A stretch of DNA of 64,000 nt from Balneolaceae bacterium (GCA_017640605.1 JAEPQH010000006.1:1-64000), one strand, 5' to 3'; positions 8,307-60,277 are shown, numbered from the stretch's first letter. Made by a program: numbers and translations. The notes: generated by a model not told the origin, from the sequence alone.

Positions 8307-9845
8307 CTATTCGCCTCGTGAAATATTTATCACTTTATAAGTTACTTCGATGGATGATGCAGTTCCCTGCTCATCAGTTGCTACGATTCTAAACGACTGA
8401 TCACCAATCTGCCGTTCGTTGGGCGTCCAACTAAATTCGCCGGTTTGTTCATTTAGTGTAGATCCTTCCGGGAGATCAACTCCTAAATATCGAATTAACC
8501 CATTTGAAGGGTTTTCGGGATCGATGGCGTTAAATGTGATCTGATAAGGATCATTAACTGCGATTGTAGAGCCACGAACGGGACTGAATCGAGGTGGAGT
8601 ATTGAATGTTCGGACCTCGACAGTAAAGCTAGTACTATCGATTTCGCCTTTGCTGTTAGTTCCAATTATAGTAAAAGGAGTAATACCTACTTGGTTGACA
8701 GAAGGTTGCCAATAAAAGCCCTGTTTTTGGATACGAGCATTTGCAACCGGCGATTTGTAGGTAAAAGTTACGTCACTATGGTCGCCGGATTCAAGTTCGA
8801 TCGCTGTAATAAGCGGCTGAGGAAATGTTAGTGTTTTGTTGTCTATTGATTTGAGTCTGAAAGCACCTGAATTGGTTCCTGAGGTCGAAATTGGAGCTGA
8901 TCCATCATTATTTTTTTGCAAAGGACTTACTTTATCAAAAATTGAAATCCAGAGTGCATCGGTACTTTTAGCAATATAATTACCGCTTTGGCTTTCACCC
9001 TGCCATAATCGTAAGGCTCCATTATTTTCCGAAATCCAAAGCTGTCCATTCTGAGTACGCACGAATAATGTATTGTCAAACTCAGCAACTTTAAGAATTG
9101 GTGTATTTGTAGCGCCTATTTTTCGCCCCAAACCATTTGTGGTAACCGAATACAAATCGCCGTTATCGGTTGAACCCCATAGTTTTTCGTTTTGAATAAA
9201 AAGATTGGTTAGGTCTTCACTTACCGACAAAGAACTAATGGACTCTAAGCCGTTATCACCTATTTGAAAGGAGTGAATTTTTCGATCATCAGATAACACA
9301 AAGAGCTGATTGGACAATAGCGATGAAACAACGTCTAAAACAGCAACTCGTCCTATTGTGCCATTTGCAACGATAATTGCATCCGAATCAAATTCATCGG
9401 GAGAAGTCAATGGAAGTTCACCTAAGCCTTCCTCACCAAGTGCCACATATAATTTATCAGCTAAACGAGCTACACCTCTTGGTGAAACAGGAAGTTGTGT
9501 AGATGAAAACACCCCAAGCACAGAGGTTGGTTCCAGAACGGTCAATCGCGTCGAATTTCCATACAAGTAGGCGAAACGAATGTCTGATTCGATAATATTT
9601 CCTCGACGCTGCATTCCCGATGAGGTGTACAGCCATTGCAAAGAATCGCCATAAACTCGAAAAACTGCCATGCCTTCAAGTTCGGATAACACGTACAAAT
9701 GAGAGGCTGAGGCATCTAAAGCTTTGATGTTGGAAATCTCAATAAGGTTTTCGTAGTCCTGCGACCATTGTGCGTGCGTTTGGGCGCTGAAACAAAATAC
9801 CAGAAAGAATAAGATTGCAGTTGTGATGTTATGCATATGCTTCAT
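8307..9845 (-). CDS. Exported protein with beta-propeller-like body and C-terminal Ig-like domains
   Basis: This 512-residue protein has a signal peptide (MKHMHNITTAILFFLVFCFS, cleavage after THA near residue 25). The middle (about 30-320) has recurring short strands around phrases such as LYVLSELEGMAVFRV, LYVALGEEGLGEL and LFVLSDDRKIHSF, suggesting a LVIVD/propeller-type repeat fold. The C-terminal part (about 340-505) holds two Ig/cadherin-like modules. The last, with NTPPRFSP, ITFNAIDPEN and GEFSWTPNERQIG, is typical of putative Ig (He_PIG) domains. It lies seven bases upstream of mutY on the same strand. Function is unknown; a secreted or surface adhesion role is only a guess. Confidence 0.7.
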   Translation of the reverse strand: MKHMHNITTAILFFLVFCFSAQTHAQWSQDYENLIEISNIKALDASASHLYVLSELEGMAVFRVYGDSLQWLYTSSGMQRRGNIIESDIRFAYLYGNSTRLTVLEPTSVLGVFSSTQLPVSPRGVARLADKLYVALGEEGLGELPLTSPDEFDSDAIIVANGTIGRVAVLDVVSSLLSNQLFVLSDDRKIHSFQIGDNGLESISSLSVSEDLTNLFIQNEKLWGSTDNGDLYSVTTNGLGRKIGATNTPILKVAEFDNTLFVRTQNGQLWISENNGALRLWQGESQSGNYIAKSTDALWISIFDKVSPLQKNNDGSAPISTSGTNSGAFRLKSIDNKTLTFPQPLITAIELESGDHSDVTFTYKSPVANARIQKQGFYWQPSVNQVGITPFTIIGTNSKGEIDSTSFTVEVRTFNTPPRFSPVRGSTIAVNDPYQITFNAIDPENPSNGLIRYLGVDLPEGSTLNEQTGEFSWTPNERQIGDQSFRIVATDEQGTASSIEVTYKVINISRGE

Positions 9846-9853
9846 TTATGATT

Positions 9854-10831
9854 CTACAACCAATTATTATTTTTGTACCATCTGATAGTGCGCGAAATGC
9901 CTTCCTCTAAAGTTGTAGTTGGTGTATAACCTAGTTCCTTCTTTGCTTTCGCTGATGAACACACCCATTCGTGGGTCATCTCTTTGGCCTTTTCTTCATT
10001 CAATACCGGATATTTCCCAAAAATTCCTGCGCCTTTCTCTACCAACGATCCAATTTTTTTAATCCAATCAGACTTCAACTTTAAGGGGATTGGCTTCCAG
10101 CCAGTGACTATTGAGGTGATATCACGAATCTGATTCCATGAATAAGCGTCTTTAGGTCCACCCATGAAATAAATATGTGTTCCTTTTTTTGTGAATTCTG
10201 CGGCTTTCATTATGCCATTTACCAAATCCTTAATGTATACCATAGAGAGCTTCGGATGGTTCCCATCGCCAACCATTGGGCAAATCCCAAGCTTAAATGT
10301 TTTAAAAAAAGTGTAGATATCAGATTCGCGCGGTCCAAAAACGGCAGGTGGACGAATAATTTTAATGCTTTCGTTTTCTGATGCAGTTCTTAGTATAACT
10401 TCTTCCATTTCTTTTTTGGACTCTCCATACATACTTACCGGGCGCCGCGGTGCTTGTTCTGTGATAGGTGTTCCATTACTGGGTCCGGACGCTGCTAAGG
10501 AAGAAAGAATCACTAAGTTTTTAATTCCTTTCTTTTGCGCAATGCGTAGCAGATTTTCAGTGGCATCAACATTAGCTATTTTAAAATCCATCCATTTCGG
10601 AGCTCTAACTACACCCGCCACATGGAAAATAACATCCACACCTTCCAGCGCGGAACTAAGTACTTGTAAGTCGGTTAAATCGCCTTTAACTCTAGTAAAG
10701 GCTTTTCCGGTTAACCACTTATCAGAACTTCTAACCAAACACAATACTTCCGAATATTGATCGGATTCGATCAGTGCATCAACAAGATGACTGCCAACAA
10801 AACCGGTTCCGCCGGTAACAAAGGCTCTCAT
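9854..10831 (-). CDS. Extended short-chain dehydrogenase (NAD-dependent epimerase/dehydratase family)
   Basis: This 325-residue protein has an N-terminal Rossmann motif VTGGTGFVGSHL (5-16), VKGDLTD near 48 for the adenine ring, SSLAASGPS near 119 and the catalytic YGESK near 144. A membrane-facing C-terminal helix region is also present. Such proteins act on nucleotide sugars, sterols or lipids. It is divergent from the glycosyltransferase-spt block at 10.9-15.7 kb. In Caulobacter the 3-oxo-ceramide reductase CerR is an extended SDR of this annotation class encoded near spt, so a role in sphingoid reduction is a reasonable hypothesis. The alternative is a sugar epimerase, and the sequence alone does not decide. 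Confidence 0.75.
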   Translation of the reverse strand: MRAFVTGGTGFVGSHLVDALIESDQYSEVLCLVRSSDKWLTGKAFTRVKGDLTDLQVLSSALEGVDVIFHVAGVVRAPKWMDFKIANVDATENLLRIAQKKGIKNLVILSSLAASGPSNGTPITEQAPRRPVSMYGESKKEMEEVILRTASENESIKIIRPPAVFGPRESDIYTFFKTFKLGICPMVGDGNHPKLSMVYIKDLVNGIMKAAEFTKKGTHIYFMGGPKDAYSWNQIRDITSIVTGWKPIPLKLKSDWIKKIGSLVEKGAGIFGKYPVLNEEKAKEMTHEWVCSSAKAKKELGYTPTTTLEEGISRTIRWYKNNNWL

Positions 10832-10930
10832 AAATGTGTATATTTATCGGATTTTTGAAAATTGGTTAGCGCATCATTGGATAGTCGCACAGCCTCGAAG
10901 ATACAAATCTACGAACTGCTTTTAAACTGA

Positions 10931-12088
10931 ATGAACGAACTGAGAGTAGCATTATTTACCGGTAATTATAATCACATCAGAGATGGTGTGTCGCTTACAT
11001 TAAACAGACTGGTAGCCTATTTAGAGAGACAAAACATCCCTGTATTAGTTTTCGGGCCGAGTATAAAAAATCCACCCATGGAGCACTCCGGAGAGTTGGT
11101 GGTTACGCCATCCATACCAATGTTGGTTCCCGGTAGAACTGAGTATAGAATTGCCACGCATTTTCCCGGATGGGCAAAAAAGCGATTAGAAGAATTCAAT
11201 CCAACATTAATTCATGTTGCCACTCCAGATGGTCTTGGAAGCAGCGCGCTTAAATGGGGTAAAAAACATGATGTGCCGGTTGTTGCTAGTTACCATACTC
11301 ACTTTTTGAGCTATGCCACATATTACGCTGCATTTTTGATGCCCGTTTTTCTGCCGGCTAAATGGCACATGAAATCTTTCTATAAAAAAGTGCAAGAAAC
11401 CTATGTTCCTTCTCAATCTATGATCGATGAACTCGAAGAAATCGGGTTGGATAGTAAAATGAAAATATGGGCTCGTGGAATTGATTTAGAACGTTTTAAT
11501 CCAAATAAAAGAGATATTGAATGGCGGCGATTGGTTGGATTTAAAGACGATGAAATTGTAGTGAGCTTTGTATCTCGTTTAGTGTGGGAGAAAGAATTAA
11601 GGACTTACATAAAAGCAGTAAAAAATTTACAAGCTAAGAATCCTAAAGTGCGTGCATTAATTGTAGGTGATGGTCCCGCTTTGGAAGAAACGAAAGAGCT
11701 GTTACCTGTTGCCCATTATACCGGTTTCGCAAAAGGAGAAGAATTAGCGCGTGCATATGCTAGTAGCGATATTTTCTTATTTCCATCGCATACCGAAACA
11801 TTTGGAAATGTTACGCTTGAAGCAATGGCTAGCGGTTTGCCCTGCGTTGTTGCTGATGCAATTGGTAGCAAATCGTTGGTACAAGATGGTGTAAATGGAT
11901 TTTGGGCAGAACCAAAAAACGAAGCTGATTTTACTGAGAAATTGAATAGAATTGTAGAAAACGAAGAGCTTCGAAGTTCGATGAGTAAAAAGTCTCAGGA
12001 ATTCGCGATGGAATATCAATGGGATTCAATCAATGGTGGGCTCGTAGAAAACTATAAATCCGTGATTAAGAATTATTCTGCTTCATGA
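10931..12088 (+). CDS. GT4-family glycosyltransferase (first of two)
   Basis: This is a 385-residue GT-B retaining glycosyltransferase. The N-terminal acceptor domain has FTGNYNHIRDGVSLTLNRL near 10-28 and SYHTHF near 120. The C-terminal donor domain has FVSRLVWEKELRTYI near 215, VGDGPALEE near 247 and the conserved ETFGNVTLEAMASGLP near 288 containing the EX7E motif. The pattern is close to digalactosyl/mannosyl-lipid GT4 enzymes (PimB/MgdA-like), which is family inference. It overlaps the second glycosyltransferase gene by four bases and precedes spt, so a lipid acceptor such as ceramide is suspected. The start is an ATG at 10931. Confidence 0.87.
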   Translation: MNELRVALFTGNYNHIRDGVSLTLNRLVAYLERQNIPVLVFGPSIKNPPMEHSGELVVTPSIPMLVPGRTEYRIATHFPGWAKKRLEEFNPTLIHVATPDGLGSSALKWGKKHDVPVVASYHTHFLSYATYYAAFLMPVFLPAKWHMKSFYKKVQETYVPSQSMIDELEEIGLDSKMKIWARGIDLERFNPNKRDIEWRRLVGFKDDEIVVSFVSRLVWEKELRTYIKAVKNLQAKNPKVRALIVGDGPALEETKELLPVAHYTGFAKGEELARAYASSDIFLFPSHTETFGNVTLEAMASGLPCVVADAIGSKSLVQDGVNGFWAEPKNEADFTEKLNRIVENEELRSSMSKKSQEFAMEYQWDSINGGLVENYKSVIKNYSAS

Positions 12089-13221
12089 TGAAGATTTTGT
12101 ACATATCCCATTTACATCCGCCAAAAAATGCCCCTCTAGAAAGCATTGGTGGAATGCAACGAGTTAGTATTCAGCTTGTTAATGAGCTTAAAAAAAAGCC
12201 AAATGTGCAGATAAAAACAATTATTCAGCACGCACCATGGAAAGGGATTGAAGCCCGAACGGCAGTATTTTTGTTAAAACTGATTCGTAAACTCCCCAAA
12301 ATTGTAGAGGACTATCAACCCGATGTGATTCTTTTCTCCTCGATGGTTACCGCAACTTTGGCAAAATTCACCAGAAAAAAGATTTCTGTGCCAATGGTTA
12401 CCATTAATCATGGACAGGATGTGAAAATGCCAATAGGTTTATATCAGAACTTTGTACCCAAAGTATTTGATGCGCTGGACGGTGTTATTTCTGTATCAAA
12501 AGCTACGCGCGAAGAATGTATCAAACGGGGAATGCATCCAGATAAAGGTATAGCTTTGCCTAATGGATTTGATATGGCACATATACAAGAAACGCCTGAA
12601 AAATCAGCAGCCAGAAAAGAACTGGAAAATGCATTTGGTTTCTCTCTTGAAGGCAAGAAATTATTGTTAACGGTTGGCCGACAAGTAAAACGTAAAGGTC
12701 ATGAATGGTTTATTACCGAAGTTTATCCAAAAATTAATGGCGATGTAATCTATCTCGCTATTGGTGATGGTCCAGAACATGAACGGTTATTGCAAGTTCG
12801 GGATGAACTCGATTACAAAGGGCACTTACACTTTGTTGGAAAACAATCAGACCAATTACTTCGAAAATCTTATGCTGCCGCTGACGTATTTATCATGCCA
12901 AATATTCCGGTGGAGGGAGATATGGAAGGATTTGGGATTGTAATGCTGGAAGCCAATCTTGCATCAACACCCGCAGTAGCTGCCGATCTTGAAGGAATTA
13001 AAGATGTGATTAGCGATGGCGAGAACGGTTTTAAGGTAGAAGTAAAAGACGCTGAAACCTTTGCCGCACGGATAGATGAGGTTTTAACCACTGATTATAC
13101 TACATTGAGCGAGAGTAGCAGGAACTATGTGGAGCAAAATTTTGCTTGGGAACGGGTCGCTGATAGATATATTTCTTATCTTGGCGAGGTTATAAAAGAT
13201 CACAGCACTCTAAATGGCTAG
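12085..13221 (+). CDS. GT4-family glycosyltransferase (second of two)
   Basis: This is a 378-residue GT-B fold protein. It has IGGMQRVSIQLVNEL near 21-35 (acceptor-side glycine loop), TINHGQDV near 105, ISVSKATREECIKRG near 133, LTVGRQVKRKGHEWFI near 194 and EGDMEGFGIVMLEANLAS near 275 for donor binding. It begins with ATGATG overlapping the upstream stop, so the two glycosyltransferases are coupled. Only about 70 bases separate it from spt on the same strand. Two consecutive sugars on one lipid anchor is the simplest reading, but donor and acceptor cannot be told from sequence. Confidence 0.86.
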   Translation: MMKILYISHLHPPKNAPLESIGGMQRVSIQLVNELKKKPNVQIKTIIQHAPWKGIEARTAVFLLKLIRKLPKIVEDYQPDVILFSSMVTATLAKFTRKKISVPMVTINHGQDVKMPIGLYQNFVPKVFDALDGVISVSKATREECIKRGMHPDKGIALPNGFDMAHIQETPEKSAARKELENAFGFSLEGKKLLLTVGRQVKRKGHEWFITEVYPKINGDVIYLAIGDGPEHERLLQVRDELDYKGHLHFVGKQSDQLLRKSYAAADVFIMPNIPVEGDMEGFGIVMLEANLASTPAVAADLEGIKDVISDGENGFKVEVKDAETFAARIDEVLTTDYTTLSESSRNYVEQNFAWERVADRYISYLGEVIKDHSTLNG

Positions 13222-13293
13222 TTGGCGGATTTGAATGAATTTTAATACTAGCTATATTCAACGTTATTCGATTATTTGGACAGGACGGATCGC

Positions 13294-14526
13294 ATGAGCG
13301 AAACTAAAAAATTGGCCACTCAAGACATTTTTCAAAAAGCACACAATTTCACACGAGCTGATGAAGTAAAAGCATTGGGATTATACCCATATTTTAAACC
13401 GCTCGAAGCCACCGATGGTACCATCGTTGAAATTGAAGGTCAGGAAGTAATAATGGCCGGATCTAACAATTATTTAGGCCTTACAAACGACCCACGCACC
13501 ATTAAAGCCGCTCAGGACGCTCTAACCAAGTACGGTACAGGATGTACCGGATCCAGATATCTGAATGGTACACTGGATATCCACCTAGAACTGGAAGATA
13601 AACTTGCTGAATTTATGGGCAAGGAAGGCTGTGTACTTTTTAGTACAGGGTACCAAACCAATGAAGGAGCTATTCAAACCATAGCCGGCCGAAATGATAT
13701 TATTTTCTCGGATCGTGACAATCATGCTTGTATAGTGGTAGGAACTCAAGTTTCTAATGCAAAGACGGTTCGTTATAAGCATAACGACATGGATCAGCTA
13801 CGAAAGTTTTTAGAGCAAGCCGATCCCAAAGCTGGCAAAATCATTGTTACGGATGGTGTTTTTTCCATGTCGGGCACACTTGCAAAAGTGCCGGAATTAG
13901 TTGCTCTTGCTAAAGAATTTAATGCACGCTTGTATTTGGATGATGCCCATGCGGTTGGCGTTGTTGGTGAAGGTGGACGAGGTTCTGCTTCAGTGTTCGG
14001 TTTGACGGATGAAGTTGATTTAATTAGTGGTACTTTTTCTAAGTCGTTTGCTTCACTTGGTGGTTTCTTGGTTGGTGATCGAACCGTAATCGAGTATATT
14101 CGCCATCATTCGCCGGCGCATATATTTAGCGCTTCTATGCCACCCGCTAACGTAGCTACAGTTCTTACTGCACTTGAAATTCTTAAAGAAGAAACCTGGC
14201 GTTTAGATCGATTAGAAGAAATTTCGATTTACATGCGCACAGAATTGGAAAAACTAGGTTTTAATGTTTGGACGAGTCAATCACCAATAATTCCAGTTGT
14301 GATTGGTGATATGATGGATTGCTTTAAGTTCTGGAAAGATCTTTTTAAAGAAGGTGTATATGCTAATGCGGTAATACCGCCAGCAGTACCTCAAGGGCAG
14401 TCGTTGTTACGAACCAGTTACATGGCCAGCCACACTGATGACCATTTAGACAGAATACTTGAAGCATTCAGAAAAGTTGGTATCAAACACGGGATAATCG
14501 ATAGTAACGGACACTCGGCAAGCTAG
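13294..14526 (+). CDS. spt: Serine palmitoyltransferase (alpha-oxoamine synthase)
   Basis: This PLP enzyme condenses serine with a fatty acyl thioester to 3-ketosphinganine, the first step of sphingolipid synthesis. The 410-residue protein (counting from ATG 13294; a TTG at 13276 would add six) has SNNYLGLTNDP near 57, YGTGCTGSRYLNGTLDIH (about 80-97), the PLP-stacking His in DRDNHACIV (about 144), LDDAHAVGVVGEGGRG (about 215-230) and the Schiff-base Lys250 in GTFSKSFASLGGF. The combination KALGLYPYF near the N-terminus and IFSASMPPANVA matches soluble bacterial SPTs of Sphingobacterium and Bacteroides better than 8-amino-7-oxononanoate synthase or Kbl. It is nine bases from the GNAT gene. 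Confidence 0.88.
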   Translation: MSETKKLATQDIFQKAHNFTRADEVKALGLYPYFKPLEATDGTIVEIEGQEVIMAGSNNYLGLTNDPRTIKAAQDALTKYGTGCTGSRYLNGTLDIHLELEDKLAEFMGKEGCVLFSTGYQTNEGAIQTIAGRNDIIFSDRDNHACIVVGTQVSNAKTVRYKHNDMDQLRKFLEQADPKAGKIIVTDGVFSMSGTLAKVPELVALAKEFNARLYLDDAHAVGVVGEGGRGSASVFGLTDEVDLISGTFSKSFASLGGFLVGDRTVIEYIRHHSPAHIFSASMPPANVATVLTALEILKEETWRLDRLEEISIYMRTELEKLGFNVWTSQSPIIPVVIGDMMDCFKFWKDLFKEGVYANAVIPPAVPQGQSLLRTSYMASHTDDHLDRILEAFRKVGIKHGIIDSNGHSAS

Positions 14527-14535
14527 AAAAAGGAT

Positions 14536-15657
14536 ATGAACACTACGGGAATTACGATCGTCACTACCGATGACGAGAAAAAGACATTTCTGGAATTCCC
14601 GTACACTCATTATCAAAACGATCCCCACTTTGTTCCACCACTCAGGATAGATCAGAAAAAACTGATCGACACAAAGAAAAATCCATTTTATGAAAATGCA
14701 GAAATTGCTTTGTTCATAGCCGAACATAATGGGAAAATTGCAGGTCGTATTTCAGCCACTGTGGATCATCGGTTTAACAAATATCATAATTCAAAAACGG
14801 GTCACTTCGGCTTTTTTGAATGTATAGATCATCAACCAACCGCAGAATTATTATTCAGAGTTGCAGAAGACTGGCTTCGGGATCGTGGAATAACTAAAGT
14901 GCTAGGACCTGCAAGCCCGGGCATGATGGATATGATTGGGATTTTGACCGAAGGCTTTGATCGCGATCCTTTTGTCATGATGCCCTATTCCAAGCCATAC
15001 TACCCAAAGCTGATTGAAGCTTGTGGTTATGATGTTGAAATGGAATTACTCGCTTTTATGATTTCTCAAGATGATGTGGCTTCCGATCGAATGAAACGCG
15101 CAACCGAAATCGTTCATAAGCGCAATCCCGGTTTAAGTTTTCGGCAAGTAAATATGAAGCGCATCAAAGAAGAAGTAGAAATTGTTCGCGAAATTTACAA
15201 TCAGGCTTGGAAGGATAACTGGGGATTTTTACCCTTAACCAAAGCCGAGCTACAATCCACCGCCGACGATTTTAAACTGATATTAGACGCCGACGTAGCC
15301 CACATTGCAGAAATTGATGGAAGACCGGTTGGTTTTTCAATTTCCATTCCGAATTTGAATGTGCTGTTCAAAACGATGAATGGAAAACTATTTCCTTTTG
15401 GGATTTTTAAACTACTTTTTGGGCGTAAAAAAATTAATGAATTACGTACGGCACTAATGGGTGTATTGCCGGAATATCAAGGCAGAGGAATAGAGGCGTT
15501 ATTAAATCAGCGAACAATTGAACGAGGGAAAATAAAAGGATACGATCGGTCAGAAATCAGCTGGGTGCTGAACAATAACGTTGACATGATTCGTGTAGCT
15601 GAGCGCCTTGGGGCAAAAGTTGATAAAAAATATCATATGTATACGAAGGCACTTTAG
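14536..15657 (+). CDS. GNAT-superfamily N-acyltransferase, candidate ceramide synthase
   Basis: This 373-residue protein has two GNAT-like halves. The C-terminal half has ELRTALMGVLPEYQGRGIEA (about 302-321), whose QGRGIE is the acyl-CoA pyrophosphate loop. The N-terminal half has HYQNDPHFVPPLR (25-37) and LGPASPGMMD (about 123-132). It starts nine bases after spt and is certainly cotranscribed. Bacterial ceramide synthase (bCerS), which N-acylates the sphingoid base, is reported to be unrelated to eukaryotic CerS and to belong to an acyltransferase family of the GNAT type. Proximity to spt makes this protein the candidate. The GNAT fold is secure, and the substrate is inferred. Confidence 0.75.
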   Translation: MNTTGITIVTTDDEKKTFLEFPYTHYQNDPHFVPPLRIDQKKLIDTKKNPFYENAEIALFIAEHNGKIAGRISATVDHRFNKYHNSKTGHFGFFECIDHQPTAELLFRVAEDWLRDRGITKVLGPASPGMMDMIGILTEGFDRDPFVMMPYSKPYYPKLIEACGYDVEMELLAFMISQDDVASDRMKRATEIVHKRNPGLSFRQVNMKRIKEEVEIVREIYNQAWKDNWGFLPLTKAELQSTADDFKLILDADVAHIAEIDGRPVGFSISIPNLNVLFKTMNGKLFPFGIFKLLFGRKKINELRTALMGVLPEYQGRGIEALLNQRTIERGKIKGYDRSEISWVLNNNVDMIRVAERLGAKVDKKYHMYTKAL

Positions 15658-17291: not shown

Positions 17292-19712
17292 ATGATAGAA
17301 GTTAAGCCAAAGACCCGAGGTAAATTCTCTGCCGCTGAAAAGAAGGAGATTCTTTCCGACTATAAATTAGGTTGGACAAGTAGATATATGTCGCTTATTG
17401 GCCGCAAAGAAGTTCTATCCGGTAAAGCCAAATTTGGAATCTTCGGCGATGGAAAAGAAATCCCTCAAATTGCATTGTCTAAAGTATTTCGCGATGGCGA
17501 TTTCCGCTCAGGGTATTATCGAGATCAAACTTTGATGATGGCAATTGGTGGGGTAACAGTAGAGCAGTTTTTTGCACAATTGTATGCGCACCCCGACCCT
17601 GAAGCAGATCCTAATTCTGCCGGTCGACAAATGAATTCACATTTCGCCAGTAAATTGATCGATGAAAACGGAGAATGGATCGATCAAACCAAGAATAAAA
17701 ACACTTCTAGTGGTATTTCGCCAACGGCTGGGCAGATGGCACGGTTAGTTGGTTTAGCTCAAGCCTCTAAAATGTACAGAAATGTACCGGAGCTTTCCGG
17801 CGAAGAATGGTCGAAGTTTTCGAATAACGGTAATGAAATAGCTTTTGGAACAATCGGGGATGCATCAACCTCTGAAGGCGTTTTTTGGGAAGCAATTAAT
17901 GCCGTTGGAGTGTTACAGTTACCGATGGTAATGTCGGTTTGGGATGATGGTTATGGGATTTCAGTACCAAAAAAATACCAAACTACGAAAGAAAGCATCT
18001 CAAAAATTCTTTCGGGATTTCAGCGAACAGAAGAAGAGCCTGGCTTTGAAATTCTAACCGCAAAGGCGTGGGATTATCCACAATTACTGGCTACTTACGA
18101 AAAAGCTGAAGAGATCGCGCGAGAACAACATGTACCCGTATTAGTTCATGTAGAAGAAGTAACGCAACCACAAGGGCATTCAACATCCGGATCGCATGAG
18201 CGCTATAAGAGCAAAGAGCGCTTAGAGTGGGAGGTAGAATATTGCTGTCTCAATCAACTAAGAAAATGGATTTTAGCGAAAAAGATTGCCACTGAGGCGC
18301 AACTCGATGAAATTGAAGCTAATGCACTGGAAGAAGTAAATGTAGCCAAAACTAAAGCTTGGGCGGATTACATCGATCCGATGAAAAAGGAAAAAACCTT
18401 CGTGCTTTCTAAGGTTGCTGAATTGAAAAAAGAGCTGAAAGATGATCGTTTCACAGCGCTGGAACGAAGGCTCAAAGCATCACCAAATGCTATCCGCAAA
18501 GATATTATGCCGGTTGCTAAAAAAGCAGTGCGATACTCCGTTGGAAGTGAGAATGATGCTCGCAAAGCACTAATTGATTGGTTAGAAGAAAATAAGCCGA
18601 TAAACGAAGACCGCTATAACAGTCATTTATTGAGCGAGACTCCAAAGTCACCATTGAACGTTGAGCACATCGCCCCTGAATTTTCCAGTAATTCAGATAT
18701 GGTAGATGGGCGGATTGTTCTTCGAAATAATTTTGACAAGCTTTTTAACGCATATCCAAATTTACTCACTTTTGGTGAAGATGTTGGTGCCTTGGGCGAC
18801 GTAAATAAAGGGCTTGAAGGACTTCAAGAGAAGTACGGGAAACTTCGAATTGCGGATACGGGAATTCGAGAAGCAACCATTTTAGGGCAAGGGATTGGTA
18901 TGGCGCTCAGAGGCTTGCGACCCATTGCAGAAATTCAGTATCTCGATTACCTTTTGTATTGTTTTTATGTATTAAGCGATGATCTTGCAACATTGCGCTA
19001 CAGAACTAAAGGCCGTCAGGCTGCTCCGGTTATTATACGTACTCGGGGACACAGACTCGAAGGAATCTGGCATTCTGGTTCACCTATGGGAGTCATTTTA
19101 AGTGGTGCTCGTGGAATTCATTTATGTGTGCCAAGAAATTTAACTGAAGCTGCCGGTTTTTATAATTTACTTCTGAAAGGAGATGATCCCGCAATCGTAA
19201 TTGAGCCTCTCAATGGGTATCGATTGAAAGAAAAACAACCGGATAATATTGGTGAATTTACTACCCCTTTGGGCATTCCTGAAATTGTTCATCAGGGTTC
19301 GGATATCACAGTAGTTTCTTACGGATCAACATTTAATATCATAGAGTCCATCATCCCACAGCTAGAGGAAGTTGGGATTAATATCGAGTTGATCGACGTT
19401 CGAACGTTGATGCCTTTTGATATCAACCACATCATCGCTGATTCCGTAAAGAAAACGAATCGATTGTTAATTGTTGATGAGGATGTTCCGGGAGGAGCTT
19501 CTGCATTTATTCTGCACAATGTATTGCAAACTCAAAATGCATATTACCATCTAGATTCAGAACCACGATGCTTAACGGCTAAAGAACACCGTCCGGCGTA
19601 CGCTTCTGATGGAGATTACTTTAGTAAGCCAAATGCAGAAGATATTTTCGATGAAATTTACTCAATGATGCGGGAATGTGAACCATCGAAATTTCCATCT
19701 ATCTACGAATAA
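17292..19712 (+). CDS. 2-oxoacid dehydrogenase E1 component, alpha-beta fusion
   Basis: This is a thiamine-diphosphate dehydrogenase E1, most likely for branched-chain 2-oxoacids. It decarboxylates the substrate and passes the acyl group to lipoyl-E2. The 806-residue protein fuses both subunits. The alpha part (about 1-400) has YYRDQT near 75 and the TPP-binding stretch GDASTSEGVFWEAINA (190-205), ending in VWDDGYGIS (217-224). The beta part (about 470-806) has FGEDVGALGDVNKGLEG near 493 and IVDEDVPGGAS near 730. A linker rich in charged residues joins them. The usual asparagine of the GDG...NN motif reads DD, as seen in this subfamily. No E2 or E3 gene is adjacent. Confidence 0.88.
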   Translation: MIEVKPKTRGKFSAAEKKEILSDYKLGWTSRYMSLIGRKEVLSGKAKFGIFGDGKEIPQIALSKVFRDGDFRSGYYRDQTLMMAIGGVTVEQFFAQLYAHPDPEADPNSAGRQMNSHFASKLIDENGEWIDQTKNKNTSSGISPTAGQMARLVGLAQASKMYRNVPELSGEEWSKFSNNGNEIAFGTIGDASTSEGVFWEAINAVGVLQLPMVMSVWDDGYGISVPKKYQTTKESISKILSGFQRTEEEPGFEILTAKAWDYPQLLATYEKAEEIAREQHVPVLVHVEEVTQPQGHSTSGSHERYKSKERLEWEVEYCCLNQLRKWILAKKIATEAQLDEIEANALEEVNVAKTKAWADYIDPMKKEKTFVLSKVAELKKELKDDRFTALERRLKASPNAIRKDIMPVAKKAVRYSVGSENDARKALIDWLEENKPINEDRYNSHLLSETPKSPLNVEHIAPEFSSNSDMVDGRIVLRNNFDKLFNAYPNLLTFGEDVGALGDVNKGLEGLQEKYGKLRIADTGIREATILGQGIGMALRGLRPIAEIQYLDYLLYCFYVLSDDLATLRYRTKGRQAAPVIIRTRGHRLEGIWHSGSPMGVILSGARGIHLCVPRNLTEAAGFYNLLLKGDDPAIVIEPLNGYRLKEKQPDNIGEFTTPLGIPEIVHQGSDITVVSYGSTFNIIESIIPQLEEVGINIELIDVRTLMPFDINHIIADSVKKTNRLLIVDEDVPGGASAFILHNVLQTQNAYYHLDSEPRCLTAKEHRPAYASDGDYFSKPNAEDIFDEIYSMMRECEPSKFPSIYE

Positions 19713-59311: not shown

Positions 59312-60277
59312 ATGTCTGAATCAAATTACATCCAAACTGACACGATTGATCCTCATGTAGAGCGACGGCGTGCAATATTAAAAGCTCATCCTGAAGTGAA
59401 ATCATTGTATGGCCGAAATCCTGCAACATTTGGCTGGATTCTGTTTCTGTTCTTCGGGCAGTTGATCATCGCTTATTTGGTGAAAGATGCCTCGATCTGG
59501 TGGGTTTTGGGCGCTGCATACTTTATTGGTGCGTTCTTTAATCATTCAGCCTTTTGCTTAAAGCACGAGTGTACGCATCATCTAGTTTTTAAGAACAAAA
59601 CGGCCAATATGCTTTCAGGGATTTTGGCAAACCTTACCTCTTGTACTCCCAGTTACGCCATCTTTTCGGTAACTCATATTAAACATCATTCTCATCAGGG
59701 AGAATATGATATGGATTTTGATTTGCCTCTGCACTGGGAAGCAAAACTCATCGAAAACACACCATTTGGAAAAATTTTGTGGATGTTGCTTCAGCCGCTT
59801 GCAGTGTCTTTACGACCGCTTAGAAAACATACTATGAATTACGTTACAAAATGGGCGTATGTAAATGTAGCGGCTGTTATTCTGTTCGATATTGCCATTT
59901 TATATTTCATGGGGCCGTATGCTTTTTTCTATCTGTTTTTATCCACTGTGTTTGGGTTAGGATTGCATCCCTTAGGTGCACGATGGATTCAGGAACATTA
60001 CGTGGTTCATGAAGATCAAGAGACTTATTCGTATTACGGTTGGTTAAATAAAATCACTTTTAATATCGGGTACCATAATGAGCATCACGATTTTCCGGGA
60101 ATCCCTTGGAGTAATTTGCCATCGTTACGTAAGATGGCCCCGGAATTTTACGATACGCTTTACTACCACGAATCATGGAGTAAGCTGTTGTGGAGATTTT
60201 TTACCGATAAGAATCTGACTTTATATTCGAGAATAGAGCGACCCGGTAAATCGGAACTCGCTAAATCAACCGGCTGA
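59312..60277 (+). CDS. DEGS-type sphingolipid delta-4 desaturase homologue
   Basis: This membrane di-iron desaturase has 321 residues. The Lipid_DES-like N-terminus DPHVERRRAILKAHPEVKSL (13-32) parallels DEGS1 (PHADRRREILAKYPEIKSL, recalled). Histidine boxes are HECTHH (85-90), HIKHH (122-126) and HNEHH (255-259), with FGLGLHPLGARWIQEHY before the third. The C-terminal ETYSYYGWLNKITFNIGYHN and FYDTLYYHESW also follow the animal protein. General bacterial fatty-acid desaturases lack these marks. The substrate would be dihydroceramide or a related sphingoid base, consistent with spt at 13.3 kb, but the reaction is not proven. Confidence 0.85.
   Translation: MSESNYIQTDTIDPHVERRRAILKAHPEVKSLYGRNPATFGWILFLFFGQLIIAYLVKDASIWWVLGAAYFIGAFFNHSAFCLKHECTHHLVFKNKTANMLSGILANLTSCTPSYAIFSVTHIKHHSHQGEYDMDFDLPLHWEAKLIENTPFGKILWMLLQPLAVSLRPLRKHTMNYVTKWAYVNVAAVILFDIAILYFMGPYAFFYLFLSTVFGLGLHPLGARWIQEHYVVHEDQETYSYYGWLNKITFNIGYHNEHHDFPGIPWSNLPSLRKMAPEFYDTLYYHESWSKLLWRFFTDKNLTLYSRIERPGKSELAKSTG

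Follow-up and report, generated by a model that had tools for sequence, protein, structure and literature searches.

Does a single 6-kb locus of a Balneolaceae bacterium encode the full route from serine to a glycosylated form of ceramide, a membrane lipid usually associated with animals? The locus lies in a window of 64,000 nucleotides, the whole stretch of DNA analysed here (JAEPQH010000006.1:1-64000 of assembly GCA_017640605.1; contig C7 of a genome that totals 3.74 Mb), and comprises genes for an extended short-chain dehydrogenase/reductase (SDR), two GT4-family glycosyltransferases (GT4a and GT4b), a serine palmitoyltransferase (Spt) and a GNAT-type N-acyltransferase. Among named relatives of the genome, the nearest belong to Balneolaceae, with Balneola, Gracilimonas and Rhodohalobacter among them. 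A first-pass annotation had proposed that these genes supply the entire route within 6 kb. All five open reading frames were recovered where it had placed them, and their families were assigned with Pfam and NCBIfam models and followed through samples of 117 genomes from the order, Balneolales, and 198 genomes from the phylum. It is highly probable that the locus encodes a three-step bacterial pathway to the ceramide backbone: synteny outside the order, co-occurrence, and the trees of Spt and GNAT give the predicted Spt/GNAT/SDR route good support. This part of the proposal stood, whereas glycosylation of the backbone by the GT4 enzymes is plausible at best.

Genome comparison provides the strongest evidence for the role of the SDR. 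Among 149 Bacteroidota genomes outside the class, a strict SDR match (E<=1e-38) was present in 95 of the 99 genomes that carry Spt (E<=1e-90) and in none of the 50 that lack it, and a strong GNAT match (E<1e-70) in 97 of the Spt-positive but only 2 of the Spt-negative genomes; because the genomes are related, p-values for these distributions are only indicative. Of the four Spt-positive genomes that lack a strict SDR match, two have a weaker SDR downstream of GNAT (L064, L068). The SDR is also the top match in its own genome to the proteins in the CerR position of Klebsiella and Sphingomonas (110-111 bits, versus 59-82 bits for the best paralogue). Weighing against this assignment, it is no more than ~26% identical to proteobacterial CerR candidates, and the deep branches of the SDR tree lack resolution. 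The placement of the SDR in the class of the oxo-ceramide reductase was nevertheless supported, both by its distribution and by its position next to the spt-GNAT pair in Bacteroidia as well as in other phyla. Conservation of the SDR in genomes that lack spt, which would have refuted the proposal, was not observed.

The best NCBIfam model of Spt is the CFB-type serine palmitoyltransferase NF047600, at 500.4 bits. This is below the model cut-off of 640 bits and counts against the assignment, although the cut-off is a naming rule and not a functional feature; because of it, we regard Spt as a predicted divergent lineage of serine palmitoyltransferase (SPT). The closest solved relative is the Sphingobacterium SPT (3a2b/8guh, 412 bits), while other chains scored at most 288 bits (Kbl/BioF-type) and 225 bits (the cysteate-C-fatty acyltransferase CapA). 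At the positions that match H138, K244 and R367 of the Sphingobacterium enzyme, Spt has histidine, lysine and arginine, which we take to be the stacking histidine, the pyridoxal phosphate (PLP) lysine and the carboxylate-binding arginine, respectively. In a tree that included the sphingomonad SPT (907 bits to 2jg2) and, as named comparison proteins, a glycine C-acetyltransferase that exceeds its own cut-off and an enzyme of the BioF/Kbl family, Spt fell on the SPT side, apart from most other alpha-oxoamine synthases (support 97/80), as did the second copy from one Bacteroidia genome (L248). The tree places it with the proteobacterial sphingolipid enzymes.

The GNAT protein, which had been put forward for N-acylation, remains a good candidate for this step. 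Over ~376 aa it shares 37% identity with the proteins that Klebsiella and Sphingomonas encode in the CerS position, a position assigned by synteny with the Caulobacter layout, and in the tree it joins these proteins with support of 100/100, apart from the second GNAT of its own genome. A plasmid search returned relatives of ~30-39% identity from Klebsiella, Sphingomonas, Roseomonas, Rubrobacter and Streptomyces, some of them adjoining or near SPT genes, as well as YghO of E. coli; the literature searched contained no matches for yghO with ceramide synthase. The AlphaFold model is a full-length double GNAT (pLDDT 91.6) that resembles tandem GNATs (Z 21-25) and N-myristoyltransferases (Z 16-17), and the substrate of the modelled protein cannot be read from this common fold. 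A PDB sequence search gave no significant relative of GNAT. The second GNAT of the genome (29% identity) lies by genes for a FabA-like dehydratase, a ketosynthase and a GT2 enzyme (L242 5325-9689, equivalent to C14:260824-265188), possibly another cluster for an N-acyl or polyene lipid.

Gene order outside Balneolales bears out the association of the three backbone genes. In the comparison with Bacteroidota spt loci, the SDR adjoins spt-GNAT in many Bacteroidia; it is divergent from spt in many and follows GNAT in others. SDR-SPT-GNAT sets also occur in metagenome-assembled genomes (MAGs) labelled Gemmatimonadota, KSB1, Methylomirabilota, Acidobacteria, Chloroflexi, Desulfuromonadaceae and more, in a locus list that was retrieved via GNAT (a collection scan and a six-row GNAT alignment) and is a non-random sample. 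Genomes of the sister orders within the class also carry the SDR, at a distance from spt. Tight same-strand SPT-GNAT-SDR rows are found on actinobacterial plasmids of Rubrobacter radiotolerans (L101 5704-9071) and Streptomyces sp. NBC_01001 (L103 5766-9048); their GNATs are 33-39% identical to that of the window, although the SDR lies downstream of GNAT in these rows instead of diverging, and no GT4 gene is present.

Among described systems, Caulobacter crescentus, compared here by description, likewise has genes for Spt, an N-acyltransferase and an SDR-type reductase near each other: aasR-cerR-acpR-spt corresponds to CC_1165-CC_1162 and cerS to CC_1154 (PMC11324152). A Klebsiella plasmid locus, in which genes for a fatty acyl-AMP ligase, an epimerase-type SDR, an acyl carrier protein and SPT follow one another beside that for an N-acetyltransferase, shares the aasR-cerR-acpR-spt layout. 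The window differs from Caulobacter in the lack of aasR and acpR beside these genes, in the two GT4 genes between the SDR and spt, and in the arrangement of spt and GNAT, which lie 9 nt apart on one strand and not in separate operons. In Bacteroides and Prevotella, Spt, CerS (BF9343_4218) and CerR (BF9343_4240) have been identified (PMC10865984); the same enzyme set is expected in Bacteroidota, and Prevotella-like genomes (family f21, in our own reading) carry Spt, GNAT and SDR homologues, although GNAT does not adjoin spt there as it does in the window. The spt-GNAT adjacency is a counter-example to the statement that cerS is always in another operon (PMC11324152) and to the remark that in Bacteroidota the three ceramide genes do not lie near each other (PMC11334938). 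The backbone module is ordinary in kind, being known from Proteobacteria and Bacteroides, and is here brought into one compact locus.

From the identities of the genes, their synteny and co-occurrence, and the fold of GNAT, we infer a series of reactions in which Spt would condense serine with an acyl-CoA, the double-GNAT CerS would N-acylate the resulting long-chain base, and the SDR, as CerR, would reduce the 3-oxo group to give dihydroceramide. In the locus (Table 1), spt and cerS very likely share one transcript. The GT4a and GT4b reading frames overlap by 4 nt, and ATG at 13294 is a likelier start of spt than TTG at 13276, so that the spacer between GT4b and spt is 72 nt, or 54 nt from the TTG. 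Promoters of the SDR gene and GT4a are presumed to lie within the divergent region between them; scans of the locus for promoters and terminators gave nothing clearly above shuffled sequence.

Table 1. Positions of the genes and intergenic region discussed, numbered from the first nucleotide of the window.
Feature	Position	Strand	Basis
SDR, CerR-type extended; candidate 3-oxo-ceramide reductase	9854-10831	-	ORF 325 aa; Epimerase 112 bits, 3Beta_HSD 94 bits
Divergent intergenic region, SDR/GT4a, 99 nt	10832-10930		ORF coordinates and sequence; promoters presumed
GT4a, GT4-family glycosyltransferase; candidate for first sugar	10931-12088	+	385 aa; PF00534/PF13439
GT4b, second GT4-family glycosyltransferase; candidate for optional second sugar	12085-13221	+	378 aa; PF00534
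Spt, serine palmitoyltransferase	13276-14526	+	416 aa from TTG; Aminotran_1_2
GNAT, CerS-type double-GNAT N-acyltransferase	14536-15657	+	373 aa; PF00583, 40 bits
Desaturase, Lipid_DES-type; candidate sphingolipid delta-4-desaturase; possible accessory, unlinked	59312-60277	+	FA_desaturase and Lipid_DES

Two further genes of the window lie near the locus. An Ig-domain protein of 512 aa with a weak PorZ-like match (8307-9845, minus strand) lies beside the SDR across the order, and a fused E1 alpha/beta oxo-acid dehydrogenase of 806 aa (17292-19712, plus strand) lies two genes downstream of GNAT. In other Balneolales families (L054, L055, L057), separate E1-like genes, only ~30% identical, stand between GNAT and fumarase.

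The acceptor of the two glycosyltransferases is the harder part of the question. Within the order, spt is present in 116 of the 117 genomes and GT4a in 115, and in all of the ~106 genomes that have both on one contig (a hand count from gene-position lists) GT4a is encoded shortly upstream of spt in the same orientation; on these grounds the five-gene arrangement is not due to chance. The block of SDR, GT4a, (GT4b), spt and GNAT is kept in 20 loci from five families, with protein identities down to ~40%, the exceptions being GT4b in some loci and the SDR side, which is absent on one short contig (L058). Both glutamates of the EX7E motif of GT4a, E289 and E297, are invariant in 20 GT4a sequences. 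GT4b is less constant: it is restricted to the class (44 of the 198 phylum genomes), a match to it was undetected in six Balneolales loci (L051, L055, L175, L177, L182 and L183), and in Gracilimonas-like loci its slot holds a different GT4 (L184 4366-5538 and L042). Judged against the Bacteroidia layout, the Balneolales arrangement looks like a GT4 pair inserted between cerR and spt, and this insertion is an order-specific variant. So placed, GT4a, with or without a second GT4, would probably be expressed with spt; it would add the first sugar to ceramide, and GT4b an optional second. That the GT4 enzymes act on ceramide is about as likely as not.

An about equally likely alternative is that ceramide is made while the two GT4 enzymes use a different acceptor, for which a glycerolipid is the likeliest choice (a glycosyl-diacylglycerol or a glycosylated phospholipid), and that their genes stand beside spt through inherited gene order only. 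Several observations point in this direction and weigh against ceramide as the acceptor. GT4a scores best against the NCBIfam models for N-acetylglucosaminyl-phosphatidylglycerol synthase (160 bits) and monoglucosyl-diacylglycerol synthase (130 bits), without reaching the cut-off of either. In the sister orders, the two GT4 genes usually adjoin each other but are far from spt, often near uvrA or near an MMPL transporter and a DUF3047 gene, and the distant GT4a homologues of Bacteroidia are scattered, away from sphingolipid genes. Furthermore, nearly all of the 20 Balneolales loci retain mutY and the Ig-domain gene next to the SDR, and most retain fumarase; because these non-lipid neighbours are kept equally well, conservation of the GT4 genes is not lipid-specific, and order-wide synteny was rejected as proof of their role. 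Against a glycerolipid acceptor stand the position of GT4a between the SDR and spt in all examined Balneolales where contigs allow, and a Gemmatimonadetes MAG contig (L201 1-4031) that ends within a GT4a-like gene directly after SDR-SPT-GNAT. Among the 84 spt loci outside the order this was the only one with a GT4 detected near the module, a frequency that itself speaks against glycosylation of ceramide; the contig was rejected as strong proof of the opposite, since one in 84 is within gene-density expectation, although the gene starts right after GNAT. Strong GT4a homologues outside the class (E<=1e-50) were found in 48 Spt-positive genomes versus 1 Spt-negative genome, mostly of one family, and this co-occurrence may be explained by lineage. 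Bacterial ceramide glycosyltransferases are represented by BF9343_3149 and ZMO1957 (as cited in PMC10865984). By description, which is the basis of our comparison, they share with GT4a the proposed addition of sugar to ceramide and differ from it in that its best models are glycerolipid glycosyltransferases; the literature searched contained no matches for sgtA/sgtB. In sum, the first-pass suggestion that both genes glycosylate ceramide draws plausibility from their adjacency to spt throughout Balneolales, while the location of the pair in sister orders and the rarity of GT4 genes beside the module in other spt loci tell against it.

Returning to the backbone, the SDR might reduce free 3-oxo-sphinganine before acylation, in the eukaryote-like order, and not 3-oxo-ceramide. 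We consider this rather unlikely, while recognizing that both orders have been proposed for bacteria (PMC11087976; PMC11324152) and that Bacteroides has an active 3-ketosphinganine reductase, BT_0972, encoded at a different locus (PMC9278070). The sequences here favour neither order, and acylation-first and reduction-first routes are both compatible with them. Finally, it is very improbable that the product is a capnine-type sulfonolipid or other alpha-oxoamine lipid for which Spt would accept cysteate or a different amino acid in place of serine, even though halocapnines are reported in Salinibacter and relatives, of a sister group (PMC5167729), and Spt is below the NCBIfam cut-off, since its score to the solved SPT far exceeds that to CapA and it falls on the SPT side of the tree.

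The desaturase, which the first-pass annotation had placed 45 kb away, was confirmed ~44 kb from the locus. The protein has three histidine boxes and passes the cut-offs of both FA_desaturase (99.8 bits) and Lipid_DES (45.6 bits). Lipid_DES is the domain of sphingolipid delta-4-desaturases and is patchy in distribution (21 of the 198 phylum genomes). Outside the class, co-occurrence of the desaturase with Spt was not significant (12 versus 2 genomes, p=0.14), and a PDB sequence search gave no significant relative.

Reports on the lipids of the group bear on the proposed route. The literature searched contained no sphingolipid report for Balneolota, a point against the proposed route. In Fodinibius alkaliphilus and relatives, of the same family as the window, iso-C15:0 is among the major fatty acids and glycolipids of unassigned structure are present; aminolipids are reported in some of them (PMC12260241). 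We count these glycolipids in favour of ceramide glycosylation. Rhodothermus has mainly diphosphatidylglycerol (DPG) and phosphatidylethanolamine (PE), and Rubricoccaceae no glycolipids (PMC5167729). Rhodothermus-like genomes (79-81% DNA identity to a named Rhodothermus MAG) carry both GT4a and GT4b; the presence of the pair despite DPG/PE lipids speaks, weakly, against a glycolipid role.

For the biology of the order, the furthest-reaching reading is that Balneolales make glycosylceramides, which in some members carry a delta-4 double bond of the eukaryote-like kind: the order-specific locus would make and glycosylate ceramide, the Lipid_DES protein would unsaturate the base, and the products would be the structurally unassigned glycolipids of the group. 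We offer this as a speculation that is unlikely to hold in full. The locus itself gives a gene-level, directly testable prediction for the structurally unassigned glycolipids of a whole bacterial order, and if the GT4 enzymes do use ceramide, the locus would be a compact natural cassette for bacterial glycosphingolipids.

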